64,000 nt of DNA from Glaciibacter superstes DSM 21135. GTDB lineage: Bacteria; Actinomycetota; Actinomycetes; Actinomycetales; Microbacteriaceae. The translations under genes and the position numbers were made by a program. The notes under the pieces were generated by a model. It searched no databases and was not told where the DNA came from. It worked only from the letters and a program-made list of their open reading frames with translations. Numbering within the stretch: position 1 is the stretch's first letter; every line of letters starts with the position of its first letter. Location: the NCBI RefSeq assembly GCF_000421145.1, contig NZ_ATWH01000001.1, positions 186,001 to 250,000 of the forward strand. The letters run 5' to 3'. Below are positions 23,896-48,625 of this stretch, piece by piece.

Positions 23896-25155
23896 ATGAC
23901 CAAAAGACCCTACACAGATCCGCAGGCGGCTCGAACGGGCGACCGGCTGCGGATCGCCATGATCGGCACCAGGGGCGTGCCGGCCGCCTATGGCGGGTTC
24001 GAGACGGCGGTCGAGGAGATCGGCCGCCGGCTCGCCTCTCGCGGTCACGGTGTCACTGTGTACTGCCGGTCACAACATCACGCGGCAACCCGCCGGGACT
24101 ACCTGGGAATGACTCTGGTGCAGCTCCCCGCCCTTCACCTCAAGGCCGTGGAGACACTGAGCCACACAGCGCTCTCGGTCGCCCACGCCGCCATGCATCG
24201 GAGGCCGGACGCCGCGTTCGTCTTCAACGCGGCGAACGCCCCGTTCGTCGCCATGCTCCGGATGCGACACATCCCAACGACGGTGCACGTCGACGGTCTT
24301 GAGTGGATGCGAGGCAAATGGGGAGCCGGCGGACGGCATTATTATCGATGGGCAGAACAGGTGTCCGTGAGGCAAGCGGATGCGCTGATCTCCGACGCGC
24401 AGGGAATCGTCGACTACTACAGCCACGAGTTCAGGGTCCCCACCGAACTGCTCACCTACGGCACCAAGATCCTCACCAACACACCCACCGATCGTCTGGT
24501 CGAACTGGGGCTCGGCGCCGGCGCGTATCATCTGGTCGTCGCCAGGTTCGAACCGGAGAACCACGTGGACGTCATCCTCGAGGGCTACCGGCGAAGCGGC
24601 GCCCGACTCCCATTGGTGGTGGTCGGGTCCGCGCCGTATGCGGAGAACCACACCAACCGCATCATGCGACTGGCCGCGCCGGACGACCGCATCCATATGC
24701 TCGGCGGGATCTGGGACCAGGACCAGCTCGATCAGCTCTACGCGCACGCCGCCACCTACCTGCACGGCCATTCCGTGGGTGGGACCAATCCGTCCCTGCT
24801 TCGCGCGATGGGTGCGGGCACCGCCGTCATCGCCTGGGACGTCGTCTTCAATCGCGACGTCCTCGGCGCAAGCGGCGCGTTCTTCGCCGACGCTCAGGGA
24901 GTTGCGACCCTGATCGACGACGCAGAGCTGAGCCCACACCGCACGGCGGAGGTGGCGGTGGCCCTGCAAGGACGAGCACGCTCCCTCTACAACTGGGACG
25001 CTGTCACCGACGGCTACGAAGGCCTCGCGCGCCGCCTGGCCGCGGGGTACAGCACGCACGGTCTCAGCAGTGGGCGCCGTCGCGAATCGGCCTGGGCAGA
25101 AACCGACGAATTGTACTCTCCCGCGAGCACAGCAGTCATCGGACGGCTCTCATGA
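23896..25155 (+). CDS. Glycosyltransferase, DUF1972/GT4 type
   Basis: A 419-residue GT-B glycosyltransferase. The N-terminal half has the DUF1972 opening (RIAMIGTRGVPAAYGGFET) found in rhamnosyl- and other hexosyltransferases of capsule and EPS loci; the C-terminal half has the GT4 pattern with HSVGGTNPSLLRAMGAG as the nucleotide-sugar-binding region. It probably adds the second sugar to the lipid-linked repeat unit on the cytoplasmic face. ATG 23896 begins 2 nt after the upstream stop and its stop overlaps the next start, so it is translationally coupled on both sides. Donor sugar unknown. Confidence 0.87.
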   Translation: MTKRPYTDPQAARTGDRLRIAMIGTRGVPAAYGGFETAVEEIGRRLASRGHGVTVYCRSQHHAATRRDYLGMTLVQLPALHLKAVETLSHTALSVAHAAMHRRPDAAFVFNAANAPFVAMLRMRHIPTTVHVDGLEWMRGKWGAGGRHYYRWAEQVSVRQADALISDAQGIVDYYSHEFRVPTELLTYGTKILTNTPTDRLVELGLGAGAYHLVVARFEPENHVDVILEGYRRSGARLPLVVVGSAPYAENHTNRIMRLAAPDDRIHMLGGIWDQDQLDQLYAHAATYLHGHSVGGTNPSLLRAMGAGTAVIAWDVVFNRDVLGASGAFFADAQGVATLIDDAELSPHRTAEVAVALQGRARSLYNWDAVTDGYEGLARRLAAGYSTHGLSSGRRRESAWAETDELYSPASTAVIGRLS

Positions 25156-25973
25156 GCCGCGCCGAATCGACCCGGCTGCGCCGGCCGCGCACCCGTTCGG
25201 CCGACGGCTACGCCCTGACGGTGCGCCGCCTCGCGAGTGCGCAGAAGAGTGCCGCGCCGGGAGCCCCACCGTACTCCATCTACGTCAACCGACGCGTCGG
25301 ACGCTACCTCGCCGCCTGGGCGTACCGGCGCGGCTTCTCCCCGAACGGCGTGACGGCGATCAGCGCCGCATTTACATTCATCGGCGTCGCCCTCATTGCG
25401 CTCGTGCCTCCCCAGTGGTGGCTCGGAGTCGTGGTCTGGCTGGCACTCGCCATCGGTTACGCCTTCGACTCAGCAGACGGCCAGGTCGCCAGGCTGCGCG
25501 GTGGCGGATCCGCAGCGGGCGAGTGGCTCGACCACATCGTGGACTGCATCAAGATCGCGACGCTCCATGGTGTGGTCCTGGTCGCCGCCTATCGGTTCTT
25601 CGATCTCCCGAACGCCGCGTGGCTGCTGGTGCCGATCGCCTACGGCGTGGTCGCGAGCGTGTCGTTCTTCGCGATGATCCTGAACGACCAGTTGAAAGCG
25701 AACCGGCGCCAGGCGGCATCCGCTGCCCATAGCCCTGTGCCAACCCGCGCACACCGCGGCGCACTGAAATCGGTGCTGCTCCTGCCAACCGACTACGGCA
25801 TCCTCTGCGCGGTGTTCCTGCTGCTTGGCTTTCCGCCGGTGTTCTTCGTCATTTACACCCTGATGGCCGTCGCCAACACCGGGCACCTCACTCTCGCGCT
25901 CGCCAAATGGTTCACCGATATGCGCGTGCTCGACGACCGTAACCTCAACAGTCAGAAAAGGAAGGCGTCATGA
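25152..25973 (+). CDS. CDP-alcohol phosphotransferase family membrane protein
   Basis: A 273-residue integral membrane enzyme with a perfect CDP-alcohol phosphotransferase motif: Asp106, Asp109, Gly110, Ala113-Arg114, Gly123, Asp127 and Asp131 in the D-x2-DG-x2-AR-x8-G-x3-D-x3-D spacing. The family moves a phospho-alcohol from a CDP-linked donor to a hydroxyl group, usually in phospholipid synthesis, using two metal ions. About six hydrophobic helices surround the motif. It is locked into the EPS operon by ATGA overlaps on both sides, so its product probably decorates or primes the polysaccharide instead of general lipids. The GDDW-type cytidylyltransferase at 48146 could make its donor. The actual alcohol is unknown. 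Confidence 0.85.
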   Translation: MSRAESTRLRRPRTRSADGYALTVRRLASAQKSAAPGAPPYSIYVNRRVGRYLAAWAYRRGFSPNGVTAISAAFTFIGVALIALVPPQWWLGVVVWLALAIGYAFDSADGQVARLRGGGSAAGEWLDHIVDCIKIATLHGVVLVAAYRFFDLPNAAWLLVPIAYGVVASVSFFAMILNDQLKANRRQAASAAHSPVPTRAHRGALKSVLLLPTDYGILCAVFLLLGFPPVFFVIYTLMAVANTGHLTLALAKWFTDMRVLDDRNLNSQKRKAS

Positions 25974-26875
25974 CCACTCAACCCCCAGGCGACAGGCTCG
26001 CCGTGATCGTCGTGAACTACGGGTCCGCCGATCTCCTTCGCGCAAACCTCGCCCTCTACGATCCGCGTCCGCTGGCTACCGCCGTCGTGATCGTCGACAA
26101 TTTCACAACGGATGCCGACGCAGAAGACACCCGCGAACTGGCCGACTGGATGGGATGGGAACTCGTCGCATCCCGGCGCAATCTCGGCTTCGGTGCCGGC
26201 ATGAATGCGGGAGTGGAGCGCGCGCGCAAACTCGGCTGCACGACATTTCTGCTCCTGAACCCGGACGCACGAGTCGAACCAGACGTTGTCGAGGCGCTCT
26301 TCTCCGAATGCCGCGAGAACCCGCTCTGCGCCGTTGCTCCCCGCATCGTGCGCGAAGACGGTCGCCTCTGGTTCTCCGGTGCGACGGTCCTGGTCGACCG
26401 CGGCAGTACGAGTACCGAAAGCGGCGCTGACAGCTCGGCCGCCAATGGGTGGATCACCGGTGCCTGCGTAACCATTCACGAGCGGCTCTGGGAGCGAATC
26501 GGCGGTTTTGACAACGACTATTTCCTCTATTGGGAAGACATCGATCTGTCGTGGCGACTGACAGAAGCCGGCGGACGCCTCCTGGTGCGCGACGACCTCA
26601 TTGCCGTTCACAGCGTCGGAGGCACCCAGTCCAGTTCAGGAAAGTCGCCATTGTACGTCTATTACAACTGCCGCAATCGGATGTTGTTCGCGTCAAAACA
26701 CCTGAATCGTCGATTTGTCCTTCGCTGGATTTTGAACAGTCCGCGGTATGCCGTCCAGGTATGCACCCGCGGTGCGGGCCGCCGAACGCTGCTGAGGAAG
26801 CCTGAGTTGATTGGCGCCGCTGTTCGCGGAACCGTCACCGGATCAATCGCGGCCCTTCGCGCACGACCCGCGTGA
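25970..26875 (+). CDS. Glycosyltransferase family 2
   Basis: A 301-residue GT-A enzyme, rhamnosyltransferase-like: opening LAVIVVNYGSADLL, acceptor-side FLLLNPDARVEPD (metal/nucleotide-binding Asp), and the catalytic-base segment YFLYWEDIDLSWRLTEAG. The C-terminal helix region is basic and probably membrane-associated. It would add a sugar to the EPS repeat unit in the cytoplasm. The start overlaps the CDP-alcohol enzyme stop by 4 nt. Donor and linkage unknown. Confidence 0.88.
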   Translation: MTTQPPGDRLAVIVVNYGSADLLRANLALYDPRPLATAVVIVDNFTTDADAEDTRELADWMGWELVASRRNLGFGAGMNAGVERARKLGCTTFLLLNPDARVEPDVVEALFSECRENPLCAVAPRIVREDGRLWFSGATVLVDRGSTSTESGADSSAANGWITGACVTIHERLWERIGGFDNDYFLYWEDIDLSWRLTEAGGRLLVRDDLIAVHSVGGTQSSSGKSPLYVYYNCRNRMLFASKHLNRRFVLRWILNSPRYAVQVCTRGAGRRTLLRKPELIGAAVRGTVTGSIAALRARPA

Positions 26876-26884
26876 GTGCACGTG

Positions 26885-28093
26885 ATGACCGTTCACTCTC
26901 GCCGGCCCCGTTCGGCCGATGACACGCCCATCCGTATTCTCGTCGCGCACCCTGGCGCCGAGCTGTTCGGTTCCGATCGCATGGCACTGGCAAGCATTGC
27001 CGGTTTCCTCGAGGCCGGCAACGATGTTGTCGTCACCACCCCGCAGGACGGGCCGCTCCCGGGCCTGGTGCGTCGGCTCGGCGCCACATTCGAACGGTGC
27101 CAGACCCCGGTTCTGCGCAAGAGCCTGCTGCACCCTGTCGGGCTGCTGCGGCTGGCGGGACAATCCTTGTCGGGGCTGATCGCCGGGACGAGACTGGTCT
27201 CCAGGTTCCGGCCGGACGTCCTCTACGTCAGCACGCTGACCATCCCGCTCTGGGCGGTGATCGGCAAGGTCACCCGAACGCCGGTGGTATGTCATGTCCA
27301 CGAGGCAGAGAGCACCGCCCCGCGCTGGATGCGGCGGGCGCTCGCAGCCGGCGCCCTGCTCGCCGAAACGGTGATCGCCAACAGCGAGTTCAGCGCTGAC
27401 GTGCTGAGGACCACATTCCCGCGCCTCACCCGGCGCATCAGGGTCGTCTACAACGGGATCGACGGCCCTGACCATCCCGGCACCGCCCGAACAGGGCTGA
27501 CCGGAGGTCTCAGGGTGGCATACGTCGGCCGGTTGTCGGCACGCAAAGGAGTCGACGTGGCCATCGCTGCTGTTGCGCTCGTTCGGGCTCATGGCAGCCC
27601 GGCACAGCTCGATATCATCGGCAGCGTCTTCGAGGGCAACGAAGCATACGAGGTGTCGCTCCATACCCTGGCCGAAGCGGAGGGCATCGCGGACGTCGTG
27701 CAATTCGTCGGCTTCATCCCCGATGTCTGGGATGCCTACGCCGGCTGCGACGTCGCCGTTGTTCCCTCGCGGTTCGATGAGCCATTCGGCAATACCGCCG
27801 TCGAAGCACTGCTGGCCGCGCGGCCCGTGATCGTCAGCGACACATCAGGCCTTCGCGAGGCAGCCGACGGTTATGAGTCCGCACAACGCTCCGCTCCAGG
27901 CGATCCGATCGACCTGGCACGAGCGCTCGAGCGCGCCATTGCCGAGTGGCCAGGGCTCCGCCGTGCCGCGCAGGGAGACTGTGAGCTCGCGCGTATCCGT
28001 CATTCTCCCGCCCGCTACCAGGCCCTGGTGGCAGCGATCGTCGGCCTCAGCTCATCGGCACGCACCCGGAGGGGAGAACCGGTGCGAATCTGA
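26885..28093 (+). CDS. Glycosyltransferase family 4
   Basis: A 402-residue GT-B retaining glycosyltransferase. The N-terminal Rossmann half begins IRILVAHPGAELFGSDRMAL; the C-terminal half has RVAYVGRLSARKGVDVAI and the E-x7-E motif FDEPFGNTAVEALLAA that binds the nucleotide sugar. It is coupled to the previous gene: GTG 26876 follows the upstream stop directly, and ATG 26885 is the alternative adopted here; neither has a good ribosome site. It is the last gene before a promoter-like region (28080-28150). Confidence 0.88.
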   Translation: MTVHSRRPRSADDTPIRILVAHPGAELFGSDRMALASIAGFLEAGNDVVVTTPQDGPLPGLVRRLGATFERCQTPVLRKSLLHPVGLLRLAGQSLSGLIAGTRLVSRFRPDVLYVSTLTIPLWAVIGKVTRTPVVCHVHEAESTAPRWMRRALAAGALLAETVIANSEFSADVLRTTFPRLTRRIRVVYNGIDGPDHPGTARTGLTGGLRVAYVGRLSARKGVDVAIAAVALVRAHGSPAQLDIIGSVFEGNEAYEVSLHTLAEAEGIADVVQFVGFIPDVWDAYAGCDVAVVPSRFDEPFGNTAVEALLAARPVIVSDTSGLREAADGYESAQRSAPGDPIDLARALERAIAEWPGLRRAAQGDCELARIRHSPARYQALVAAIVGLSSSARTRRGEPVRI

Positions 28094-28145
28094 GTTTTCT
28101 TCGCTGATACGAGTAGGGTTATCGCACCGATCGTGCAGGAGGTGA
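28080..28145 (+). promoter_or_regulatory. Promoter region and full-length Shine-Dalgarno of the BY-kinase gene
   Basis: TAGGGT (28114-28119) is a good actinobacterial -10. It is flanked by an 8-bp inverted repeat CGGTGCGA (28080-28087) / TCGCACCG (28122-28129). AGGAGGTGAT (28137-28146) is fully complementary to the anti-Shine-Dalgarno end of 16S rRNA and lies 5 nt before GTG 28152, so translation should be strong. Confidence 0.5.
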
Positions 28146-28151
28146 TGACTC

Positions 28152-29624
28152 GTGGAGCCACGCATGTACCTCACCGCATTACGCCGGAGATGGGTGCTCA
28201 TCCTTCTCCTGGGCCTGGTCGGCGCGGCAGCAGCCATGGTGTACGACTCGACGCAGCCGACCCTCTACAAGTCCACTGCGAGCGTCTTCGTCTCAACGCA
28301 GCGCGGCGACACGACCAGTGAACTCGTGCAGGGTTCGACGTTCACCCAGGCGAACGTCCTGTCGTACGCCCAACTGGCCCGCACACCCGTCGTTCTCCAG
28401 CCGGTGGTCGACGAGCTCGATCTGGCGGGCAGTGCATACAGCCTCGCGAAGGCGATCTCGGTCGATGTGCCCCTCAACACCGTGATCATCGACATCACCG
28501 CAGAGAATGGCGACGCCGGGCGTGCTGCCGAAATCGCCAACGCCGTCAGCAAATCACTCAGCTCCGTCGTCGAAGACCTCTCCCCCAAAGACCAGGCCGG
28601 CAAGTCGGCGGTCACGATGACCCCTGTCGCACCGGCCGTCACCCCCTCCGCACCATACGCTCCGAACACCCGCCTCATCGTCGTCAGCGGAATCATGGCC
28701 GGCCTCGCCGTCGGTCTCCTCCTGACCCTGCTCTGGGAGCTTCTCGACCCCCGTCTTCGAACAGTCAGCGAAGTCCTCCAGACGAGCAACGCCCCCTTAC
28801 TCGGCGCAGTGGCGCGCCTTCGCCGGGGCGATACCGGCATTGCCATGCTGCAGGATGCGCACAGCCAGCAGGCAGAATCGTATCGGCGCATCAGAACCAA
28901 CCTGGAATTCGCCAACGTCGAGCACAAGGTGCGACATATCCTGCTGACCTCCGCGACCATCGGCGAAGGGAAGACGACCACGACGATCAACCTCGCGCTC
29001 GCCCTCGCAGAACGATCCGACCGGGTGTTGCTCATCGACGCAGACCTTCGCAATCCACAAATTGCAGACCGATGCTCCCTTGAACGTTCGGTCGGGCTGA
29101 CCACTGTCCTGGTCGGCAAGATCAGGGCCGACGAAGCCGTACAGCGTTACGGGGAGTCCCTTGACGTGCTCACGTCTGGCGTTCCCCCTCACAATCCCGG
29201 CCAGCTCCTCGGTTCCCAGGCCATGGCGGAGCTCCTGGGCGAGCTTGCGCACCAGTACGACTTCATTGTGATCGACACTCCACCGCTTCTGGGGGCAACG
29301 GATGCGCTCGGTCTTGTTCACGCCGTGGACGGCGTCGTTGTTGTGGTGCGCTATCGAGCGACCAGGCGCCCGCAGCTCCTCAATGCGATCGAGGCACTGC
29401 GAGCGGTGAACGCGGACATCCTGGGAACCGTGTTCAACGGAATCAAGCCCGAAACCAGCGACGACCGGGTCTCGTATCGACCACACCCTGGAGAGCCGGC
29501 AGCGAATGTCAAAGCTCAACCCGGATCGGCCCGTGGAGACCGCGCGACACCGAAGGCACAGCCAGAATTGGCAGGTATGACGGATGCTGATGAGGGCAGC
29601 AGCGCTTCCCACAGCGCCGACTAG
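28152..29624 (+). CDS. Polysaccharide co-polymerase with BY-kinase domain (Wzz/Wzc-like)
   Basis: A 490-residue protein joining a Wzz-type chain-length domain (helix at about 14-32; second helix near 175-197) with a bacterial tyrosine-kinase-type P-loop domain. Walker A is GEGKTTT (271-277), Walker A' is LLIDADLR (293-300) and Walker B is FIVIDTPP (371-378). Such proteins set EPS chain length and control Wzy-dependent polymerisation. The C-terminal tail, where BY-kinases carry a Tyr cluster, has only one visible Tyr (VSYRPHP) and is otherwise Pro/Ala/Gly-rich, so classical cluster autophosphorylation is doubtful. It overlaps the Wzy-like gene by 41 nt. Confidence 0.87.
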   Translation: MEPRMYLTALRRRWVLILLLGLVGAAAAMVYDSTQPTLYKSTASVFVSTQRGDTTSELVQGSTFTQANVLSYAQLARTPVVLQPVVDELDLAGSAYSLAKAISVDVPLNTVIIDITAENGDAGRAAEIANAVSKSLSSVVEDLSPKDQAGKSAVTMTPVAPAVTPSAPYAPNTRLIVVSGIMAGLAVGLLLTLLWELLDPRLRTVSEVLQTSNAPLLGAVARLRRGDTGIAMLQDAHSQQAESYRRIRTNLEFANVEHKVRHILLTSATIGEGKTTTTINLALALAERSDRVLLIDADLRNPQIADRCSLERSVGLTTVLVGKIRADEAVQRYGESLDVLTSGVPPHNPGQLLGSQAMAELLGELAHQYDFIVIDTPPLLGATDALGLVHAVDGVVVVVRYRATRRPQLLNAIEALRAVNADILGTVFNGIKPETSDDRVSYRPHPGEPAANVKAQPGSARGDRATPKAQPELAGMTDADEGSSASHSAD

Positions 29625-30900
29625 CGGCGGCACGGTCATTCGCCTCGTCGCGGCGGTCGCTGTTGCGCTCGTCGGGTCGCGGATCTTCGTTGGCGGTGGG
29701 GCGACGATCGGCAACGCCGTTGCCCTGCTCCTTCTCCCCCTCTGGCTCCCCGTCTGGTCACGGTATCGGGGGGGCCGCGTCTTTGCCATCACCGGCCTGG
29801 TCGCTGCAGCGGCCGGACTCTGGCTGAGCGATTTCTCCTCCGCCGACCATTCCGTCAGTCCGGCCGGGGCACTGAGCGACATCGTCATGCTCCTCGGCGC
29901 CATTGCCGCCGTCGGGGTGCTGCTCTGGTCGCGGGACCTGCTGCCCGTTTGGCTCATCGGTACTCTCTACGGCGGTGGGATGCTGACCACCTCGGTGTTG
30001 GCTGGCGAACTCACCCAGGCGAACGCGTGGAAGTTCGGCCTGGGCTTCCCGCTGACGGTGATCGTGCTCTCCCTGCTCAGCCGGCCTGGGCTCCGCCGGT
30101 TCGAAGCCGTTGCCCTGCTGGCCTTCGCCGCCGCCGCCGTGGCAACGGACTCCCGCTATCGCTTTGCAACGCTGATGATCGCCGCCGTCTTGATCATCTG
30201 GGAGTTGGTGCCGAGCAGCCGGAGCCGTCGCGTCTCGACGCTGACCATGCTGGGAGCGGTTTCGATCATCGTCGTGCTGACCTATAACCTTGCCACGACG
30301 CTGCTCATCGACGGCTATCTGGGTGAGCAGGCGCAGACTCGCACGATTTCGCAGATCGAATTGTCTGGCTCGCTGATCGCAGGCGGGAGACCGGAACTGG
30401 CAGCATCCGTCGCCCTTTTCCAGGACCACCCATGGGGCTTCGGGGTGGGGGTATCTCCCAACCTTCACGATGTCCTGGTCGCCAAGACCGGAATGGCGGG
30501 CATCGGCTACCAGCCGAACAACGGTTATGTGGAGAACTACCTGTTCGGCCGCGGCTTCGAGCTTCACTCGGTCGCGGGCGACTTGTGGGCTTCGTTCGGC
30601 CTCCCAGGATTGGCGTTCGTGATTGTCTGCGTCGTTCTGACCCTGCACTCGATCGGTCGTCAACTCGGCGAGCGCGCAGCAACCGGGCTGGTGCTCGTGC
30701 TCGGAATCTCAACACTCTGGAACGCCCTGTTCAGCCCGATCTACGGCTCACTCTCGACGCTCGTGCTCACGATCGGGCTCGGGGCCTTGGCCAAGGACAT
30801 GGGCAGGCACGAAGACGCGTGGGGCGGGCCCACCACCGTCGCGTCGCTGCCTCGGGGTTCACGCTCGGGCAGCATGTCTCCGTTTACGAAACTGCAGTGA
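29584..30900 (+). CDS. Wzy-like EPS polymerase / O-antigen-ligase-type membrane protein
   Basis: A 438-residue polytopic membrane protein with about ten hydrophobic segments and a large extracytoplasmic loop late in the sequence containing LFQDHPWGFGVGVSPN, the HPxxGxG-type loop typical of Wzy polymerases and O-antigen ligases. No strong sequence family is recognised, which is usual for Wzy. Its place directly after the BY-kinase gene and its topology support a role in polymerising lipid-linked repeat units outside the membrane. The start at 29584 overlaps the kinase gene; the 3' end overlaps the convergent acyltransferase gene by 42 nt. Confidence 0.7.
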   Translation: MLMRAAALPTAPTSGGTVIRLVAAVAVALVGSRIFVGGGATIGNAVALLLLPLWLPVWSRYRGGRVFAITGLVAAAAGLWLSDFSSADHSVSPAGALSDIVMLLGAIAAVGVLLWSRDLLPVWLIGTLYGGGMLTTSVLAGELTQANAWKFGLGFPLTVIVLSLLSRPGLRRFEAVALLAFAAAAVATDSRYRFATLMIAAVLIIWELVPSSRSRRVSTLTMLGAVSIIVVLTYNLATTLLIDGYLGEQAQTRTISQIELSGSLIAGGRPELAASVALFQDHPWGFGVGVSPNLHDVLVAKTGMAGIGYQPNNGYVENYLFGRGFELHSVAGDLWASFGLPGLAFVIVCVVLTLHSIGRQLGERAATGLVLVLGISTLWNALFSPIYGSLSTLVLTIGLGALAKDMGRHEDAWGGPTTVASLPRGSRSGSMSPFTKLQ

Positions 30901-31920
30901 CGGCCGCTCAATCCAGAACCAGCTCGCGATGGCGCAGGGCACCGTCAATGCAATAGACAGCAGTGCGAAGAGTGGCGCGCCAAGCGCAGCACCTCCGAAA
31001 ATGGCGATGCACTGCTGCACCGGGAACGCGTAGATGTAGATGCCGTACGAGATGTCATTGCGGAACCAGAACACCCGGTGCCGAAGCAACGTCCCGGTGA
31101 CGATAAGCGCATATCCCAGGGGGAGGGCCGCAAGTAGTCGGTAGTCGGGCAGCCAGGCGGACGCGATCGTGACCGCGAAGGCGACACCGACGAGCGGCCA
31201 GGACGCCGGAATCCGATCCTGGAACCGGTAGATGAGTGCACCGGAGACGAACATGACGCCAAACCGGGCGCCGCCTGCGAGGTAGAAGTTGTCAACGGGC
31301 CCATACCCGGTCGCGATAACGGCGACCAGGCACACCAGGAACGCACAGGGCAAAACCCATGCCCGTCTGATGAGGCTGGACACCCCCAGGACCAGTACGC
31401 CGAGGTAGCAGAGGAACTCCCACCACAGAGTCCACAGGGAGCCATTCCACACCCCGGGGTACGGCACGTCGAGAGGGGTGCCTGCGATGCCGTACTGGGT
31501 GATCCGCAGTGCCGCGTTCCGAACGACGTAGCCAACGCCATCCGTCCAGAAATCGGCGGGGAGGAATCCACCGGAGAGCAGAATCGCTGCGGGAGCGATA
31601 ACCGCGGCAGTCACGATCAGGCAGGCGTAGAAGCCGGGAAGTATCCGCAGGAAACGGGCTCGCAGGAACTCCCACCATTTCGGGTGGCGAATCCAACTCG
31701 ACACGATGAGGTAGCCCGAAATGGCGAAGAACCCGTCCACCCAGACATTGGCGAGCAATTGCCGCAGCGGACCGTCCGCGATGTCGCCGCCGGTCAGGGG
31801 AAAGGAGTGCCAGAGGATGACTCCGGTTGCCAGCATCAGGCGGATCGCGTTCAGGGCGTTCGCCTTCGGCTGGAACGCTTCTGCGAGCGATGTTCTGGTG
31901 ATGATGAGACTCTGCGTCAT
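30859..31920 (-). CDS. Acyltransferase 3 (OafA/ExoZ-like) family protein
   Basis: A 353-residue membrane acyltransferase with about ten helices. The catalytic His lies in the first-helix segment LMLATGVILWHSFPLTGG, followed by WVDGFFAISGYLIVSSW, both hallmarks of the family. It would transfer acetyl or another acyl group to EPS sugars at or across the membrane. Its start overlaps the stop of the glycosyltransferase-like gene upstream (ATGA at 31917-31920), so the two are coupled. Confidence 0.88.
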   Translation of the reverse strand: MTQSLIITRTSLAEAFQPKANALNAIRLMLATGVILWHSFPLTGGDIADGPLRQLLANVWVDGFFAISGYLIVSSWIRHPKWWEFLRARFLRILPGFYACLIVTAAVIAPAAILLSGGFLPADFWTDGVGYVVRNAALRITQYGIAGTPLDVPYPGVWNGSLWTLWWEFLCYLGVLVLGVSSLIRRAWVLPCAFLVCLVAVIATGYGPVDNFYLAGGARFGVMFVSGALIYRFQDRIPASWPLVGVAFAVTIASAWLPDYRLLAALPLGYALIVTGTLLRHRVFWFRNDISYGIYIYAFPVQQCIAIFGGAALGAPLFALLSIALTVPCAIASWFWIERPSLQFRKRRHAARA

Positions 31921-39634: not shown

Positions 39635-42080
39635 GAGCAGGCCTCATTCGGGTATGGAACGATTTTCGGGTGATCGTCAGCCTGATGCAGAGTTTAGTGA
39701 CAATTGCTCAACATTCATTCCCCCCAAACGAGGGTGTTCTCAATGACCGGATGCGACGTAGTGCGCGGCGACGCGCTCGGCGGTCAGCGGGGCACCATAG
39801 ACGGCCACTTCATCGATTGAGCCGTTGAGGTATGGCTGACCCGTCCAGGTTCTGTCACCCCCGATCCGCCAGTAGCCCGCATAGTTCTGAGCCGAGGTCG
39901 TATCCGCGCGCTGCCCGACCAATGCGCCGTCGACATACAGCTCCATGCCGGTCGGACCGAGAGTGCCGACGATGTGGTGCCATTGTCCGTCGTTCAGCCC
40001 CGCCGCACTCTGCACCGTGCGCCTGGACCCGGGATACACACCGAAAAATACCCGTCCGGATGCGTCGAGGTACAGGTGCCTGTCCGCCATGGTGGACTCC
40101 CCCGTGCGAGAGTTGCCGAACCCGACGACCTTCCCACCCATTGTGCTGGTGGTCCTGAACCAGGCCTCGAGGGCGAACGCGTTCGGTCCCTGCACCGGCG
40201 CCTGCGTCGACACCAGGCCGCTGCTGCCGTCGAAGGTGGCGGCCGTATTCGAATCGGATCCGATGGCTCCAGCCGCGCCGAACGTGACTCCAGCGCCGGC
40301 TTCAGCGGTCGCTGTCCCAGCACTGTCGGCCACGATCGGACCGCCGGATTCACCAAGTCGCCAGTAGCTCACCGGCTCATCACTGGCAATCGCCTCGGCA
40401 TAGTCGCCTGCGGGAACCGGAGGGGCGGGAGGGGCGGGCGCAGGAGGCGCAGGCTGATTCGAACCCGTCCCCTTGACGACCACGCTCACATTGTTGCCGT
40501 TGACGACGTTCCCCAGCGGGTCGGTCACCCTGATCCGGTAGGTATAGCTCGCTCCGCCCGTCACGGTCGTGTCGGTAAAGGTCATCGATGGCAGGGTCCA
40601 GAAGTTCGACGTGGCCGTTGTCGAATAGACGGGAGACGCCGTGTTGCCGTTGCGGATGACGTCGTAGGTCAGCTTCGCATTGTCGCGGTCCCAGTTGGCC
40701 TTCCAACTCACTCTGGCGGTTCGGTCCGCCGGCGACGTGACCGTTGGAACATAGCTCGCGCCACTCTGCCGCGGCCCATCCTTGTTGGGTGCAATCCCTT
40801 TGGCCGCGAACCGCACGATGCCCTGTTGCGGCACGTTGTTGACGCGGGTGAATTCACCGCCGTAGAGGATGTACTGGCTGTTGCCGGCGACCGACCAGCC
40901 ACCCTGGCTGACACCGGTGAATGTTCCGGTGTTGATATCTGGATACCAGTCCAGCAGCGCAGGACGCGGTGTACCTGCCCAGTTGGTGTATCCCTTGGTG
41001 TCCTTCGTGATGGCGCCCTGGACGGTCTTGGTAAATGCCAGTCCACGATGAAAACCCCAGGGATCAGTTTGCGGGAAGCCCGCAATGTTGCCGCAGTAGT
41101 GGGCATGACTCGTCGTATAGACGACATCCGCCGTCGGGAACACGGAATAGGTGTCGCCGTGGCAGTCCTCGACCCAGATGATGGTGCCGTTGTCCCACGA
41201 CGCATAGAAAGCTCCCTCCAGCGTGCCGGTGCCATAGTGCTGGCCGGTGCCGTATACGCCATTCGCATCAGAGGCCAGGCTGGAGATCGCCGCGTTGTTG
41301 CCGGCATTGCGCACTTTGCTGTTCACGTTGAACGGCAGCATCGCCCCGGTCGCTCCGTTCAGCGAAGCGAGTCCATATCCCGGGTTGGACGATCCGTTCA
41401 CGGTCTGGAAGTAGCCGCCGATCACCACCTTGCTGCCGTCGGACTTCACCGTGACGGCGATGGCCTGCCCGCTGGCGATCTTCGGAGCCCAACCGGTCTT
41501 GCGGGCACCGGTCACGGCGTCGTAGGCGGCGGCGCCCGACACAGGCGAGCCATTTGCGACGGTGAATTGCCCGACGAGGTACACGGTGCTGTTGGTCGCC
41601 GCGACCGCGTTCACCTTGCCGTTCAGCACGGGGGCGAACGACGTCAACGCGCCCGTTGCGGTATTGAACGAGGCAATGCGGTAGCGAGCGGCCCCGCCGA
41701 TCGAGGTGAAGCTTCCCGCCACGTACAAACGGGTGCCGTCTGGCGACATCGCCATATTCCGGATGCGGGCGTTCGGGTTCGGGTTCCAGGTGCCGTTCAT
41801 GGCTCCCGTTTGAAGGTTGTACGAGAGCAGGTGGCGACGGGCGACTGAGTTCACGCCCGGTGCGGCACCGGCGGGCCTGGCGTTCTGGAAGTCGCCGCCG
41901 GCGTAGACGGTGTTGCCGGCAATCTCCTGGTCCCAGACCACTCCGTCGATCTGCACCGTCGGCAGAACATCGGTGGAGACCGTGGCCGGAGTGGCGGGCG
42001 ACGGTGGAACGGTATCCGCGGCCACCGGCTGGGCAATGAGCACCAAGCCGACCGTGATGGCCACGACGGTGGCGATGGAG
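37300..42080. repeat. Long imperfect direct repeat formed by the two propeller/LamG genes
   Basis: The stretch about 37300-39600 (N-terminal half plus first LamG of the large gene) repeats as about 39745-42080 (the short gene). For example CGTAGAGGATGTACTGGCTG occurs at 38383 and again at 40861, and whole lines around 38341-38440 and 40817-40920 are almost identical. Both copies are in the same orientation, so homologous recombination would delete about 2.5 kb and fuse the genes. Confidence 0.75.
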
Positions 42081-42109
42081 ACGACGCGTGAACGAGCAGG
42101 AGAAGGCAT
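39740..42109 (-). CDS. Secreted propeller-Fn3-LamG protein (789 aa), paralogue of its neighbour
   Basis: A shorter twin of the 1559-residue protein: signal peptide (VAAD site near 32), the same propeller-like region with VEDCHGDTYSVFPT and SHAHYCGN, the Fn3-like segment, a Pro-rich linker (QPAPPAPAPPAPPVPAG) and one LamG domain (about 580-789), then stop. PKD and second LamG domains are absent. ATG 42109 has CGAGG upstream; GTG 42139 is the alternative. Many stretches are nearly identical at nucleotide level to the neighbour at a constant offset of 2478 nt in the propeller region. Transcribed in the same direction, 105 nt upstream of it. Confidence 0.8.
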   Translation of the reverse strand: MPSPARSRVVSIATVVAITVGLVLIAQPVAADTVPPSPATPATVSTDVLPTVQIDGVVWDQEIAGNTVYAGGDFQNARPAGAAPGVNSVARRHLLSYNLQTGAMNGTWNPNPNARIRNMAMSPDGTRLYVAGSFTSIGGAARYRIASFNTATGALTSFAPVLNGKVNAVAATNSTVYLVGQFTVANGSPVSGAAAYDAVTGARKTGWAPKIASGQAIAVTVKSDGSKVVIGGYFQTVNGSSNPGYGLASLNGATGAMLPFNVNSKVRNAGNNAAISSLASDANGVYGTGQHYGTGTLEGAFYASWDNGTIIWVEDCHGDTYSVFPTADVVYTTSHAHYCGNIAGFPQTDPWGFHRGLAFTKTVQGAITKDTKGYTNWAGTPRPALLDWYPDINTGTFTGVSQGGWSVAGNSQYILYGGEFTRVNNVPQQGIVRFAAKGIAPNKDGPRQSGASYVPTVTSPADRTARVSWKANWDRDNAKLTYDVIRNGNTASPVYSTTATSNFWTLPSMTFTDTTVTGGASYTYRIRVTDPLGNVVNGNNVSVVVKGTGSNQPAPPAPAPPAPPVPAGDYAEAIASDEPVSYWRLGESGGPIVADSAGTATAEAGAGVTFGAAGAIGSDSNTAATFDGSSGLVSTQAPVQGPNAFALEAWFRTTSTMGGKVVGFGNSRTGESTMADRHLYLDASGRVFFGVYPGSRRTVQSAAGLNDGQWHHIVGTLGPTGMELYVDGALVGQRADTTSAQNYAGYWRIGGDRTWTGQPYLNGSIDEVAVYGAPLTAERVAAHYVASGH

Positions 42110-42230
42110 CGGTGGGCCTCGGTTCGGGTGGTGAGTCACAGTGCGGCTCGCTCCCAGTTTAGTGAGTAAGTCTCACTTTAAGCGCTTCCCCGCTACTTCC
42201 CCAGTTAACTGTTTCCTCGAACAAGGCAGT

Positions 42231-42893
42231 TCAGTTGGGGATGGCACCTTCGAACGCGAGGACCGGGTCACCGACCTGGTAGTCCATCGTGATCAGCACG
42301 TGATCCCGCTCCTCTTCTGGAACGGTGAAGACCATGGTGCCGGTCACCGTCGCTCCGGCCGCGACCTCGGCGGGCAATGGGCTACCACCTGGCTTCTGCA
42401 GCTCAGATGCCGGCGACTGGTCCGCGCCGTAGTACACGTTGACCAGGGCAGTGGCCAGCGAGATCGCTTTCCCGGTGCCATTGACGATTGAGACAGTGAA
42501 ACGGATGGCTGGGCCTGCCACGTCTCCGGCCAGCTGCGCTTCACCCTGCACCGCTTCGAATGTGCCAACGGAGACGGTCACCCCTGGAGCGGGTTCGGCG
42601 GCCTCCGCGAACGGGAGCGGACTTGCCGTGACGAACGGTTCATCTCCGGGGGCGGGCGAGTCCTGCGGCGGCGCTGGGGTGGAACCGGGGCTCGCGGTAG
42701 CGCCTCCGCCAGGTTCGCCCGCTCCGGGCGTCGTGGTGGACACAGACGCAGGAGACAACCCGTTATTGGCCATGGCCACCCCGATCGTCACCACGATGAC
42801 CGCGATGATCACAGCGACGGCGCCGATCGTGATCCAGACGAGAGCCATCCGCCGCGGGCCGTGGCCGGTTGGCGTTTCAACTGGGGAGGACAT
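42231..42893 (-). CDS. Membrane-anchored DUF4352-like protein
   Basis: A 220-residue protein with one N-terminal membrane helix (about 17-40, IGAVAVIIAVIVVTIGVAMA), a Pro/Ser/Gly-rich spacer, and a C-terminal beta-sandwich (about 100-220: VTVSVGTFEAVQGEAQLAG, IRFTVSIVNGTGKAISL) resembling DUF4352 immunoglobulin-like domains. Such proteins sit on the outside of the membrane and are of unknown function. ATG 42893 has AGAGAGGAAT upstream. It lies upstream of the propeller/LamG pair on the same strand and 121 nt from it. Confidence 0.75.
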   Translation of the reverse strand: MSSPVETPTGHGPRRMALVWITIGAVAVIIAVIVVTIGVAMANNGLSPASVSTTTPGAGEPGGGATASPGSTPAPPQDSPAPGDEPFVTASPLPFAEAAEPAPGVTVSVGTFEAVQGEAQLAGDVAGPAIRFTVSIVNGTGKAISLATALVNVYYGADQSPASELQKPGGSPLPAEVAAGATVTGTMVFTVPEEERDHVLITMDYQVGDPVLAFEGAIPN

Positions 42894-42992
42894 GGCATTC
42901 CTCTCTGCGAGATAGTCGATCACACTACACGAGCGGATCATACCCCCGCGTAGCGCATGTTGGCATGGAATTCTCGGGCCGCAGACACGAAG

Positions 42993-43026
42993 AAGCCGCG
43001 CCATCCTTCTCGGATGGACGCGGCTC
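42993..43026 (-). terminator. Terminator after the beta-helix gene
   Basis: On the minus strand AGCCGCGTCCATCC - GAGAA - GGATGGCGCGGCT forms a 13-bp stem with one bulged base, followed by TCTTCGT. It lies 20 nt beyond the stop at 43048. Confidence 0.65.
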
Positions 43027-43047
43027 CTTCTGTGGGGAAGTCGGGAC

Positions 43048-44385
<1,338 letters not shown>

Positions 44386-44476
44386 AGAACTTTCCTGGTA
44401 TTGATCGTTGCTTGACACGCGTAGGGGCGCGATCTGTCAGCACGTGGGGACGTGACTAGTTCGGGGGTATCAAGGG

Positions 44477-44505
44477 ACCCTAACCGGTCGAGAAGCAAAT
44501 GTCAC
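44477..44505 (-). promoter_or_regulatory. Promoter of the beta-helix gene
   Basis: On the minus strand GTGACA (44505-44500) and TAGGGT (44482-44477) are spaced by exactly 17 nt, about 92 nt upstream of ATG 44385. The leader between them and the gene contains ATACCCCCGAAC. Confidence 0.6.
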
Positions 44506-44566
44506 ATTCCGATAACGCAAAAATGAAGATTATTCGAGGAGGGTGGCAGCGGATAGTCTCTCGTGC

Positions 44567-45643
44567 ATGAAGGCGCTCGTTTTGTGGGCGGATTCCCACT
44601 CTCCCAACCTGGGGGTGCGCAGTCTCGCGGCCGGGACTGCCGCGCTCGTGGCACAGGTATGGCCTGGCTGTGAAATTGTGTTCCACAACTTCGGTCGGCC
44701 GATTCGCCAATTGCCGGTCGGACGTTTCCGGTCACTTGCGCGGGAGCGCGTGACGGGTCGCCACGGAATGCAGCGCTGGCTCGGCAACTTCGACGTTGTT
44801 ATCGACACCCGCTCAGGTGACAGCTTCACCGACATCTACGGCCTGCGCCGACTGTCAATGATGTGTGCCGTCGCGGAATGCGCAACCGAGGCCGGAACCC
44901 CCGTCGTGCTCGGACCGCAGACGATCGGCCCGTTCGACAGCCGGCGAGGTCGACGGCTCGCCGGCTTCTCACTCCGTCGAGCCGCGTTGGTCATGGCACG
45001 CGATTCTGAGAGCGCTCGCTATGCCGTGAAACTGGGACGACCAGTTGACACCCTGACAACGGATGTCGTCTTCGCGATTCCGGTTCCTTCTGTCGCCCAC
45101 ACGCGCGATGTCGTCCTCAATGCCTCTGGTCTGCTCTGGCAGGAGAATTCGCACGTCGATTCCGAACGGTACCGGCACACGATCCGCCGGCTGCTGCGCA
45201 CACTCCTCGAATCCGGACGCGAGGTCTCCCTCCTGGCTCACGTACTGGATTCCCCCTCGTCGGACAACGATCTGTACGCGGTTCGCTCCCTGGCCGAGAG
45301 TGCCGGGAGCTCAGTGGAGGTGATTGAGCCGACGTCGCTCGAGCGCTCTCGAGCTGTCGTCGCCTCGGCATCCGTTGTGATCGGGTCCCGGATGCACGCG
45401 TGCCTGAATGCCCTCTCGGTCGGCGTCCCCGCGATTCCCCTGGCCTACTCGCGCAAGTTCGCCCCGCTCCTCGAGGACCTCGGCTGGGCCGCCACCGTCG
45501 ACATGCGCACGGCAGAGGACCCTGTTGGTGAAGTCCTCGCCTACCTGGACGCTCCCGGTCTCGCATCCGGCGTGAGTGATGTGACAGAGCGTGCCGCTGT
45601 TTCGCTGCAGCGTGCCAGATTGGGCCTCCGGGCGCTGGTATGA
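44567..45643 (+). CDS. Polysaccharide pyruvyl transferase family protein
   Basis: A 358-residue protein of the CsaB/WcaK/EpsO-type superfamily. Recognised parts are the N-terminal LVLWADSHSPNLGVRSLAAG, VVIDTRSGDSFTDIYG, VVLGPQTIGPFD, ALVMARDSESARYAV and the C-terminal VVIGSRMHACLNALSVGVPA with its conserved R-x-H. Members add a ketal-linked pyruvate from phosphoenolpyruvate to EPS sugars; some relatives act as glycosyltransferases. ATG 44567 has no useful Shine-Dalgarno but sits 7 nt after TAGTCT (44554-44559), as in leaderless transcripts; GTG 44543 directly abuts GAGGAGG and is less likely. It is coupled to the flippase gene by ATGA. Confidence 0.85.
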   Translation: MKALVLWADSHSPNLGVRSLAAGTAALVAQVWPGCEIVFHNFGRPIRQLPVGRFRSLARERVTGRHGMQRWLGNFDVVIDTRSGDSFTDIYGLRRLSMMCAVAECATEAGTPVVLGPQTIGPFDSRRGRRLAGFSLRRAALVMARDSESARYAVKLGRPVDTLTTDVVFAIPVPSVAHTRDVVLNASGLLWQENSHVDSERYRHTIRRLLRTLLESGREVSLLAHVLDSPSSDNDLYAVRSLAESAGSSVEVIEPTSLERSRAVVASASVVIGSRMHACLNALSVGVPAIPLAYSRKFAPLLEDLGWAATVDMRTAEDPVGEVLAYLDAPGLASGVSDVTERAAVSLQRARLGLRALV

Positions 45644-47127
45644 GCGAGCCGCCGCAGCGAGCGTCCGATGGGCTGGGAACCCGGGCGGCGCGAGGCGCTG
45701 CCGTCACCCTGGCCGGACAGAGTGCCCGGATCGGCGTTCAGGTGGTGTCGGTGGTGGTGTTGGCGCGCCTCCTCTCCCCACACGACTACGGGTTGCTGGC
45801 GATGGTTCTGACGGTTGTCGGCATCGGCGAGATCTTCCGCGACTTCGGCCTGTCATCCGCCGCGATCCAGGCTCCCACCCTCTCGCGTGGCCAGCGCGAC
45901 AACCTGTTCTGGCTGAACGCCGGAATCGGACTCGTCCTCTCGCTGATCGTCTTCCTCAGCGCACCGCTGATTGCCCTGCTGTATGGCGAATCCGAGCTCG
46001 TGCCCCTCACCCAGCTGCTGTCGATCACCTTTGTGATCAACGGCCTGACAACGCAGTACCGGGCCGACCGAAATCGAACCATGAAGTTCACGGTCCTCGC
46101 TGTCAGCGACATCGCCGCCGCCGTGATCGGACTGGGCTGCGCGGTCGCCGCAGCAGTGGCCGGCTGGGAGTATTGGGCCCTGGCGGTTCAACAACTGGTG
46201 CAATGCGTGGTCGGGCTCGTCATTCTGGTGGCCAGTGCCCGCTGGCTTCCGCATCTGCCGGATCGCTCCGCGCCGATGTCGGGTCTGCTTCGCTACGGGG
46301 GGCACCTGGTCGGAACCCAGCTCATCGGCTACGTCAGCAACAACATCGACTCTGTCATCATCGGCACACGATTCGGGGCCGCCCAGCTCGGCATCTACAA
46401 TCGCGGCTTCCAGCTCCTGATGCAGCCGCTCGGCCAAGTGCGTTCACCGACCACCCGGATCGCCCTTCCGGTTCTGTCGCGCCTGAGTGACGACCGTTCC
46501 CGGTTCGGCGAGTTCGTGGTGCGCGGCCAGCAGGCGCTCGGCTACACGTTGGTTGCCGGGCTCGGCCTGGTGATTGCGGCGGCGGAGCCGCTGACCGCGA
46601 TCCTGCTCGGAGACCAGTGGACGGCCGTTGCGCCCATCCTCCGACTCCTCGCGATTGCCGGGATCTTCCAGACGATCGCCTATGTCGGCTACTGGATCTA
46701 CCTCTCGCGCGGCCTGACGGCCGATCTCTTTCGATACACCCTCGTCACGTCGGCAATCAAGATCACCTGCATCGTGATCGGTGCCTCATTCGGGATCGTC
46801 GGGGTGGCCGCCGGGTATGCCCTGGCGCCTGCGCTGGCCTGGCCGATCTCGTTGACCTGGCTCTCCCGCCGCACCGATATTCCGACCCGTCGACTCTATG
46901 CCGGTGCGTTCCGAATCCTGCTGGTCGTCGGGGTCGCGGCCGGGGCGGGTTGGGCAGCGACCCTCGCAGTGGACACCGAGCATGCCCTGGTGCAGGTGCT
47001 CGTTGCTTTCGGGGCCGGACTCCTGACCTATGGCCTGGGATATCTGGTCCCGCCGATCCGACGCGACATCACGGCAGTGGTCGGGATCGCGCGGCTGCTC
47101 CCTCACCTGCGAACCCGGCGCAGGTGA
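45640..47127 (+). CDS. Wzx-type lipopolysaccharide/EPS flippase (MOP superfamily)
   Basis: A 495-residue protein with about 14 membrane helices, starting GTRAARGAAVTLAGQSARIG and VVVLARLLSPHDYGLLAMVL, the characteristic opening of Wzx/RfbX-like (oligosaccharidyl-lipid) flippases. It moves undecaprenyl-linked repeat units across the membrane before polymerisation. Translationally coupled to the pyruvyl transferase gene, suggesting that the modified unit is its substrate. Confidence 0.9.
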   Translation: MSEPPQRASDGLGTRAARGAAVTLAGQSARIGVQVVSVVVLARLLSPHDYGLLAMVLTVVGIGEIFRDFGLSSAAIQAPTLSRGQRDNLFWLNAGIGLVLSLIVFLSAPLIALLYGESELVPLTQLLSITFVINGLTTQYRADRNRTMKFTVLAVSDIAAAVIGLGCAVAAAVAGWEYWALAVQQLVQCVVGLVILVASARWLPHLPDRSAPMSGLLRYGGHLVGTQLIGYVSNNIDSVIIGTRFGAAQLGIYNRGFQLLMQPLGQVRSPTTRIALPVLSRLSDDRSRFGEFVVRGQQALGYTLVAGLGLVIAAAEPLTAILLGDQWTAVAPILRLLAIAGIFQTIAYVGYWIYLSRGLTADLFRYTLVTSAIKITCIVIGASFGIVGVAAGYALAPALAWPISLTWLSRRTDIPTRRLYAGAFRILLVVGVAAGAGWAATLAVDTEHALVQVLVAFGAGLLTYGLGYLVPPIRRDITAVVGIARLLPHLRTRRR

Positions 47128-47135
47128 CCGCCCAG

Positions 47136-47164
47136 GTGACGGCTTTGGCGCTGAAGGCTATATT
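47136..47164 (+). promoter_or_regulatory. Promoter of a leaderless methyltransferase-like gene
   Basis: GTGACG (47136-47141) and TATATT (47159-47164) are separated by 17 nt; the start codon at 47171 is only 6 nt beyond the -10, predicting a transcript that begins at or next to the ATG. Confidence 0.6.
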
Positions 47165-47170
47165 GAGCAG

Positions 47171-48058
47171 ATGTTGCTCCCGATCAGGCTCCTGAAGGGG
47201 AGTTGGCCGCGGCCCCTGGAACGGTGGTTTTCGAGGTTCGTCTGGTCTGACCCCCTGGTCATCCTGCGCGACGACGTCTCCGAAGAAGACTTCCGGGCCG
47301 CCATGTCGGCCATCCACGTCGGAGACACCATCAAGATCACCGGCAGGGACCGCCATCCCGTCGCCGACGACCTCCTCATCGAGAACGTCGAACTCTCCGG
47401 CGCGACCATCGTCGACATCGGGGCGTCTGATGGCTCGACCTCCGTTGACCTGATCCGAAAACTCGACGACTTCGCGCGCTACATCATGGCCGACCTCTTC
47501 TTCGAGATCGACGTGGTCGAGGTGGGCAGGCACAGTGTGTTCTTTGATAACGACGGCAACTGGATCCTGACGGTCGGCCACCGTATTCTCGCCTGGCCGG
47601 CCGACTCAGCACTGGTGCGCCTGGTGTTCGGCCGCTCAGAGCGCCGCGCCCGCCGACCGGGGATGCCGCAGAAGCGCGCCCTGTTGCTGGGCCCGGCAGC
47701 CAGGGAACTGATGCGCCGCGACCAGCGGATCAATTACCGGGTGCACGACATCTTCACACCGTGGGACGGCCCGGCGCCGACCGTCGTGAAAGTCGCGAAC
47801 CTGTTGCGGCGACTCTACTTCAGCGACGAGGTGATCGTCTCGGCGCTCCAGACGCTCCTCGGAAGCCTTACAGAAGGCGCCTACCTGCTGATCGTGGACA
47901 ACTCCCGCATCCCGGGAATGGGTCCACGTGCCGGTCTCTACCAACGCGACGACGGCAAGTTCACGATGATTGCCGAGACGCCGGATCGTCCCGAGATCGC
48001 CGATCTCGTCGGTCGGGCGCAGCTGACGGTATTTCCCCTGGATGAACCCCAGCCCTAG
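47171..48058 (+). CDS. Class I methyltransferase-like protein in the EPS locus
   Basis: A 295-residue protein with a SAM-binding-like loop ATIVDIGASDGSTSVDLIRKL at about residues 77-97 and an acidic residue at the end of the next strand. A later strand, AYLLIVDNSRIPG, fits a Rossmann methyltransferase. The middle (VFFDNDGNWILTVGHRILAW) is not a pattern I recognise. It probably modifies an EPS sugar or lipid, but the target and even the activity are uncertain. The start ATG 47171 is leaderless behind TATATT. The frame opens from 47030 within the flippase gene, which is a shadow. Confidence 0.65.
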   Translation: MLLPIRLLKGSWPRPLERWFSRFVWSDPLVILRDDVSEEDFRAAMSAIHVGDTIKITGRDRHPVADDLLIENVELSGATIVDIGASDGSTSVDLIRKLDDFARYIMADLFFEIDVVEVGRHSVFFDNDGNWILTVGHRILAWPADSALVRLVFGRSERRARRPGMPQKRALLLGPAARELMRRDQRINYRVHDIFTPWDGPAPTVVKVANLLRRLYFSDEVIVSALQTLLGSLTEGAYLLIVDNSRIPGMGPRAGLYQRDDGKFTMIAETPDRPEIADLVGRAQLTVFPLDEPQP

Positions 48059-48145
48059 CCAGGCGCAATCGGAGCGGCTACTATCTGAGGATCTCTCACA
48101 TCCGATCCGATGGCAATTCGCCGCCGGCAGAGAGGAACCCGAACG

Positions 48146-48625
48146 ATGCCAACTGCTTCGCCCCGCTCATCGCTGCGGATCGGCTATGCCGCCGGTGCCT
48201 TCGATTTGTTTCATGTCGGCCATCTGAACCTGCTGCGCCAGGCGCGGCGCGAGTGCGACTACCTCATCGCCGGGATCGTCTCAGACGACATGCTCCTGCA
48301 GGCGAAGGGCTCGTTGCCGATCGTTCCTCTGGCCGAGCGACTGGAGATCGTGAGGAACATCGCGTTCGTGGACGAGGCCCGCGCCGAGGTGGTACCCGAC
48401 AAGCTGGAAACCTGGCGGGACGTGCGGTTCGACGTTTTCTTCAAGGGAGATGACTGGCGGGGCACAGAGCGCGGTGTTCGACTGGAACGACGGTTTGCAA
48501 AAGTCGGTGTGGAGGTCGTGTATTTCCCGTACACGGTGCACACCTCGAGCACGGCACTTCGCCGCGCCCTCGAAAACCTCGAATCGTTGCAGGGCGCTGC
48601 CCTTTCCGCAGGCGTTCGCCCGTGA
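48146..48625 (+). CDS. Cytidylyltransferase, glycerol-3-phosphate type (TagD-like)
   Basis: A 159-residue nucleotidyltransferase. The HxGH motif is AGAFDLFHVGHLNLL (about residues 17-31); VFFKGDDWRGTER corresponds to the GDDW motif of TagD/GCT enzymes; TVHTSSTALRRAL stands in place of the C-terminal RTEGISTT-type signature. TagD makes CDP-glycerol from CTP and glycerol 3-phosphate; related proteins activate other phospho-polyols or sugars (HddA/GmhD-like). ATG 48146 has AGAGGAA upstream. In this locus it could supply the CDP-alcohol used by the phosphotransferase at 25152. Substrate not certain. Confidence 0.8.
   Translation: MPTASPRSSLRIGYAAGAFDLFHVGHLNLLRQARRECDYLIAGIVSDDMLLQAKGSLPIVPLAERLEIVRNIAFVDEARAEVVPDKLETWRDVRFDVFFKGDDWRGTERGVRLERRFAKVGVEVVYFPYTVHTSSTALRRALENLESLQGAALSAGVRP

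Follow-up and report, generated by a model that had tools for sequence, protein, structure and literature searches.

An exopolysaccharide locus with a CDP-alcohol phosphotransferase and a TagD-like cytidylyltransferase

The window analysed here, 64,000 nucleotides of Glaciibacter superstes DSM 21135 (positions 186001-250000 of contig C1 in a 4.8 Mb assembly of 38 contigs), holds an exopolysaccharide (EPS) locus in which a membrane CDP (cytidine diphosphate)-alcohol phosphotransferase and a TagD-like cytidylyltransferase are encoded 22.1 kb apart (Table 1). Pfam and NCBIfam profiles applied to the window identified an initiating sugar transferase, BY-kinase/Wzz, Wzy, Wzx, glycosyltransferases, and a pyruvyl and an acyl transferase. 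With initiating transferase, flippase, polymerase and chain-length protein all in place, this is a Wzx/Wzy-dependent EPS locus, as a preceding sequence-only reading of the same DNA had assumed. In the TagD/TarD plus TagB/TagF route, CDP-glycerol from a TagD-type enzyme feeds a surface polymer. That reading had also reported the locus to be free of TagB/TagF-type genes, and a search of the whole genome with PF04464 agrees: its one match, on a different contig, reaches 20 bits and so falls short of the cut-off of 22.1.

The phosphotransferase (273 amino acids, aa) matches PF01066 with 37.1 bits (cut-off 22) and carries in full the class-I motif D(x2)DG(x2)AR...G(x3)D(x3)D, as worded in a passage of PMC4634129. 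Across 29 aligned sequences, the window's included, D106, D109, G110, R114, G123 and D127 are identical; position 113 is Ala in 28 of them, and position 131 is Asp in 28, the sole exception being a divergent paralogue on contig C11. The gene shares atga overlaps, read from the DNA, with the DUF1972 glycosyltransferase gene upstream (25152-25155) and the GT2 gene downstream (25970-25973). Both the intact motif (Asp106 to Asp131) and the coupling to glycosyltransferases on either side, as originally proposed, are thus borne out. Single-sequence, profile and fold comparisons with the PDB all put Archaeoglobus fulgidus AF2299 first. The structure model (pLDDT 87.4) has the fold of the CDP-alcohol family, with a Z score of 18.1 against AF2299 (root-mean-square deviation, rmsd, 3.4; 220 aligned residues); IPCT-DIPPS, likewise a soluble-donor enzyme, comes second (Z 17.1), and CEPT1 reaches Z 10.5.

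A signature of this subfamily is a Glu after the second motif glycine (E124) and a His after the third motif aspartate (H128), invariant in an alignment of 25 sequences—the window plus 24 of 38 named loci with a nearby phosphotransferase, hand-picked for spread—and present in 28/29 of the larger alignment. By motif spacing they match Glu151 and His155 of CEPT1, and an alignment with CPT1 gives the same result. Excerpts of PMC10156783 describe CEPT1 Glu151 as a residue that may bond cytidine, and name His155 as one of two candidate bases for activating the acceptor hydroxyl. In the alignments the Glu/His signature is missing from AF2299, which has Ala and Gly instead, from phosphatidylinositol-phosphate (PIP) synthase and from this genome's two PgsA-like enzymes. 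The extra C-terminal membrane helices of the lipid-acceptor enzymes CPT1 and CEPT1 have no counterpart in the 273-aa protein: its model, which runs to residue 261, aligns to residues 58-273 of the 380-residue CEPT1 chain and leaves the C-terminal part of CEPT1 unmatched.

Could this be an ordinary phospholipid enzyme, using CDP-diacylglycerol much as a PIP synthase does, that sits in the EPS operon by chance while the cytidylyltransferase serves something separate? The nearest NCBIfam models are indeed those of archaetidylinositol-phosphate synthase (43.2 bits) and phosphatidylinositol-phosphate synthase (39.9 bits), the protein is short, and its model gives a good fit to PIP synthases (Z 14 to 15). 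Yet both scores lie far under the curated cut-offs (180 and 170), for which reason identity as a PIP synthase was rejected, and the Glu/His signature is missing from the PIP synthase and PgsA-like sequences aligned. The PDB alignments to PIP synthases stop short of the acceptor arginines (R153 and R191 of RsPIPS). Given also the co-inheritance with the cytidylyltransferase described below, we regard a phospholipid role as quite unlikely.

The C11 paralogue (L010:10455-11285) is a second, divergent CDP-alcohol phosphotransferase, located between two GT2 genes and near the sub-threshold PF04464 protein. The alignment shows His where the fourth motif Asp would stand, so this enzyme may have lost or changed its activity. 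Two strong CDP-alcohol enzymes are encoded elsewhere in the genome and look PgsA-like when aligned and inspected by eye.

The cytidylyltransferase (171 aa) matches PF01467 with 56.2 bits (cut-off 21) and has HVGH at residues 35-38 and GDDW at 113-116, the HxGH and GDDW motifs of TagD. With its model (pLDDT 85.7), Foldseek returned 1coz, the glycerol-3-phosphate enzyme of B. subtilis, first; VIA-align ordered the matches as 3glv (Z 18.0), 5x3d (Fom1, 17.1), 1coz (16.6; rmsd 2.4, 125 aligned residues) and 2b7l (16.5). Profile and fold agree on the superfamily, and the enzyme is TagD-like in fold and motifs but no canonical TagD. Like the phosphotransferase gene, its gene is open and keeps the catalytic motifs. 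A PF01467 match on contig C12 falls in an open reading frame (ORF) about as long as CoaD, next to a long ORF, and we take it to be CoaD. A cytidylyltransferase 72% identical to the window's lies at locus L177, on a metagenome-assembled contig labelled Duganella, which may be an actinobacterial contig binned by mistake or may reflect a transfer.

Co-inheritance of the two genes

If the two enzymes act together, as the sequence-only reading proposed, their genes should travel together, and the co-occurrence check that it suggested supports this. Among 150 genomes of the same family, the phosphotransferase was found in 46, the cytidylyltransferase in 47 and both in 45 (Fisher p 1e-34; the genomes are related, so this and the Fisher values below overstate independence). 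Matches were accepted at E <= 1e-8 for the phosphotransferase and above 100 bits for the cytidylyltransferase; the latter cut leaves out 17 of 64 cytidylyltransferase genomes (best match <=48.9 bits), and with them kept the overlap is still 45/46. In the one family genome with the phosphotransferase alone (G124), the gene lies about 0.6 kb from a contig end. In a sample of 296 genomes of the class, all 31 phosphotransferase genomes also have the cytidylyltransferase, with cuts at 200 bits (next match 185.1; 86 of 117 dropped) and 170 bits (next match 90.2; 10 of 47 dropped), respectively. These samples are tool-drawn subsets of larger groups. Phylum-wide, 4 of 198 genomes gave a match at E <= 1e-40, all in the same class.

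Physical linkage points the same way. Where both genes share a contig in the family sample (n=43), the distance is at most 25 kb for 41 pairs and at most 5 kb for 13. The two ORFs themselves share an ATGA overlap at L076, L080 and L160, with both gene orders represented (read from the DNA). A phosphotransferase gene falls within the flank (<=10 kb) in 38 of 80 named loci, in 36 of which our own gene finder also called the cytidylyltransferase. One stretch holds the pair in named loci of Clavibacter, Agromyces, Frigoribacterium, Arthrobacter, Rothia, Geodermatophilus, Blastococcus, Kineosporia and Streptomyces; in the Streptomyces loci the genes are mostly convergent and overlapping. Owing to this near-obligate co-occurrence and linkage, the conclusion that the pair forms one pathway is strongly supported.

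That the association is an artefact of merely sharing an EPS locus is made less likely by one control gene, the DUF1972 glycosyltransferase. Of the same 150 genomes, 46 have it at E <= 1e-50, and 32 of these have the cytidylyltransferase; the Jaccard index is 0.52, versus 0.94 between the paired enzymes. Under a stricter cut the figures are 25/28 and 0.50. The control gene does show an association with the pair (p 6e-11 and 1e-12), though a looser one.

The two proteins differ in conservation. In 413 of 435 pairings of 30 genomes the cytidylyltransferase is the better conserved (medians 0.66 vs 0.47), as one fixed alcohol combined with varied acceptors would produce. A broader alignment comprises 36 sequences, the window plus 35 of the 80 loci, hand-picked for spread. 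One genome, G142, has the cytidylyltransferase, but its sole CDP-alcohol phosphotransferase at the applied cut-off scores like the second type (141 bits), hinting that the donor may be shared between phosphotransferase subfamilies.

Beta-propeller/LamG proteins and other neighbours

Two tandem beta-propeller/LamG proteins, which look secreted and have propellers 80% identical, are encoded between the two enzyme genes. The propeller stretch of the second occurs in 41 of the 150 family genomes, 37 of which have the cytidylyltransferase, 37 the phosphotransferase and 36 both (Fisher 7e-21); four genomes have the propeller without the cytidylyltransferase and nine the pair without the propeller. 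Homologues of the first are present in 49 of the 80 named loci (no control run; LamG or PKD stretches may account for the matches). An apparently secreted beta-propeller/LamG protein is a third associated part. Our guess is that it binds or anchors the tagged polymer.

Which genes supply the substrate? Each of the 12 neighbour clusters present in at least 9 of 36 genomes has a homologue in the window, and by Pfam none is a kinase or dehydrogenase. Ten further clusters lacking a window homologue (4 to 8 genomes) contain zero kinases and one GFO/IDH/MocA oxidoreductase (5 genomes). The absence of kinase or dehydrogenase supply genes from these neighbours suits a universal metabolite such as glycerol-3-phosphate.

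Elsewhere in the EPS locus, 49916-51205 encodes a protein resembling the coenzyme F420 hydrogenase/dehydrogenase beta subunit (PF04432/PF04422), with homologues in 4/80 named loci. A GH92-family protein of very large size, containing F5/8C and PKD domains, is encoded directly upstream of the locus (14472-20372). The initiating transferase is preceded by a small protein (21023-21985) whose C terminus matches LAXTG/LAVTG weakly, under the cut-off.

Table 1. Features of the EPS locus, in window coordinates.
Feature	Position	Strand	Evidence and remarks
Polyprenyl-phosphate sugar-1-phosphate transferase, starts EPS synthesis	22265..23893	+	PF02397; TIGR03025 above cut-off; start codon uncertain
DUF1972/GT4 glycosyltransferase	23959..25155	+	PF09314; start from own gene finder; ATGA overlap with phosphotransferase; co-occurrence control
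Class-I CDP-alcohol phosphotransferase, EPS-associated subfamily, GEWLDHxxD signature	25152..25973	+	PF01066; motif alignment; DNA; AF2299 best by sequence and fold
GT2 glycosyltransferase	25970..26875	+	PF00535; ATGA overlap with phosphotransferase read from DNA
GT4 glycosyltransferase	26876..28093	+	PF00534
Wzz/BY-kinase type chain-length protein	28152..29624	+	PF02706, PF13614
Wzy/O-antigen-ligase-like polymerase	29584..30900	+	PF04932
Beta-propeller/LamG/PKD protein, secreted by eye	34955..39634	-	Laminin_G_3, PKD, Rax2
Second beta-propeller/LamG protein	39740..42139	-	Profile matches; propeller stretch tracks enzyme pair across genomes
Small protein, membrane-anchored by eye	42231..42848	-	In 16/36 neighbourhood genomes; DUF4352 below cut-off
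Polysaccharide pyruvyl transferase	44543..45643	+	PF04230
Wzx-type flippase	45640..47127	+	PF13440
Protein without Pfam match, directly upstream of cytidylyltransferase	47171..48058	+	Start from own gene finder
TagD-like cytidylyltransferase (HVGH, GDDW, FPYTxxTSST)	48110..48625	+	PF01467; alignment; structure model

A probable two-enzyme route to phosphodiester-bearing EPS

What might the pair do? We consider it probable that the two enzymes form a route in which a CDP-alcohol, most likely CDP-glycerol, is made and its phospho-alcohol moved to an EPS intermediate without TagB/F. The cytidylyltransferase would join cytidine triphosphate and a small phospho-alcohol, most likely glycerol-3-phosphate, to give the CDP-alcohol; the membrane phosphotransferase, acting at the cytoplasmic face, would then take the phospho-alcohol off CDP and attach it to a hydroxyl group on an EPS building block. 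The acceptor would most likely be a lipid-linked sugar, with transfer preceding flipping by Wzx, so that the final polymer would carry phosphodiester groups and need no TagB/F enzyme. We infer from the comparisons above that this cytidylyltransferase supplies the donor, that glycerol is the alcohol and a glycan the acceptor, and that the steps follow this order. We favour glycerol-3-phosphate as the substrate on two grounds: CDP-glycerol is what AF2299 uses, and dedicated supply genes are not required. The transferred group might also be ethanolamine phosphate or a different phospho-alcohol.

Several results weigh against this proposal. The cytidylyltransferase misses the cut-off of TIGR01518, the curated model of TagD (glycerol-3-phosphate cytidylyltransferase), at 60.1 bits against 165.4, and on this model the earlier description of a TagD-like enzyme, sound as to HVGH, GDDW and fold, does not hold. 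RTEGISTT is not kept, the aligned segment reading YTVHTSST with Tyr in place of Arg. A heptose model scores slightly above the TagD model, and sequence comparison with the PDB puts ethanolamine-phosphate cytidylyltransferase on top, a rank aided by its matching over two domains. The C11 paralogue could share the donor. The pair is 59 and 451 kb apart in two genomes and on different contigs in two more, and the phosphotransferase is missing in 2 of 47 (family) and 6 of 37 (class) cytidylyltransferase genomes. Its faster change may only reflect membrane-protein drift. Finally, the support consists of sequence, comparative and model data.

Some of these results feed alternative substrates. The same logic with ethanolamine or another amino-alcohol would make this a bacterial Kennedy-like route placing phosphoethanolamine on a glycan or lipid, in keeping with the PDB sequence match just mentioned and with the Glu/His that the phosphotransferase has in common with CPT1/CEPT1. 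The fold comparisons rank otherwise, however: Foldseek puts 1coz first and 3elb seventh (VIA-align 16.6 vs 14.7), and the phosphotransferase is closer to AF2299 than to CEPT1. As, in addition, the neighbour clusters surveyed above hold zero kinases, we think this variant unlikely. Activation of a heptose-like sugar phosphate for a glycosyltransferase would agree with the top NCBIfam score, that of the heptose-1-phosphate adenylyltransferase domain (65.1 bits), but the cut-off of 181.5 is not reached, and in its occurrence the cytidylyltransferase follows the CDP-alcohol enzyme more closely than it does the single glycosyltransferase used as control. The genome is without gmhA above cut-off (best 24.1 bits; cut-off 209.45), for which reason the heptose route was rejected; we hold it to be very unlikely. 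A Fom1-like cytidylyltransferase, finally, would activate a phosphonate for transfer. The window enzyme's Tyr in FPYTxxTSST matches Fom1 IPYTPGISST, and Fom1 is among the top fold matches. EDKxxxxxNS is the motif of phosphoenolpyruvate (PEP) mutase, however, and none of the six PEP-mutase-superfamily (PF13714) matches in the genome carries it; the phosphonate route was set aside on that count, and we give it hardly any weight.

How does the favoured two-enzyme route relate to known systems? As excerpts of PMC4634129 describe it, AF2299 (PDB 4o6m/4o6n/4q7c) accommodates the glycerol of CDP-glycerol, processes no lipids and has an N-terminal cytidylyltransferase-like domain next to its CDP-alcohol phosphotransferase fold and motif. 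It is a natural fusion of the two domain kinds that are separate genes in the window; it is archaeal and one chain, whereas the window enzymes are EPS-linked. The Kennedy pathway (Pcyt2 or CCT with EPT1/CPT1/CEPT1) similarly couples a cytidylyltransferase to a phosphotransferase with a small CDP-alcohol and the motif Glu/His, but its acceptor is diacylglycerol and, by the same excerpts, its transferases bear 3-4 extra membrane helices. The teichoic-acid route and TagF-like capsule polymerases likewise draw on TagD-type CDP-glycerol for a surface polymer, while the transferase in the window is an unrelated membrane CDP-alcohol phosphotransferase and PF04464 is not in the locus. Actinobacterial Wzx/Wzy EPS loci have the initiating transferase, glycosyltransferases, Wzx, Wzy, Wzz/BY-kinase and pyruvyl transferase, to which this locus adds the CDP-alcohol pair and the beta-propeller/LamG proteins.

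The sequence-only reading knew of no described system of this kind. Among the open-licence papers listed by searches aimed at the pair and at related topics, no title or abstract beginning deals with a cytidylyltransferase-phosphotransferase pair in an EPS locus, and excerpts of the lipocone paper PMC12419801 hold a single mention of CDP-alcohol enzymes, for archaeal lipids. That claim is therefore not contradicted for the enzymes, but needs narrowing for the product: since PMC8262930 already describes capsules into which TagF-like enzymes build glycerol phosphate, the product class would not be new, whereas the enzyme route would be.

More tentatively, the pair might belong to a widespread actinobacterial module for Kennedy-like EPS tagging, in which one fixed CDP-alcohol serves a fast-diverging phosphotransferase acting on strain-specific glycans, and propeller/LamG proteins recognise or anchor the tagged polymer; we see this wider scheme as possible, if doubtful. 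The two-enzyme route itself predicts that the EPS of genomes bearing the pair has phosphodiesters made by it, and that the EPS of sister genomes without the pair does not. If true, many actinobacteria would share an unrecognised way of adding charged phosphodiesters to their slime polysaccharides for which teichoic-acid enzymes are not needed, and a role would be found for proteins that are named only 'CDP-alcohol phosphatidyltransferase' and are easily mistaken for lipid enzymes.

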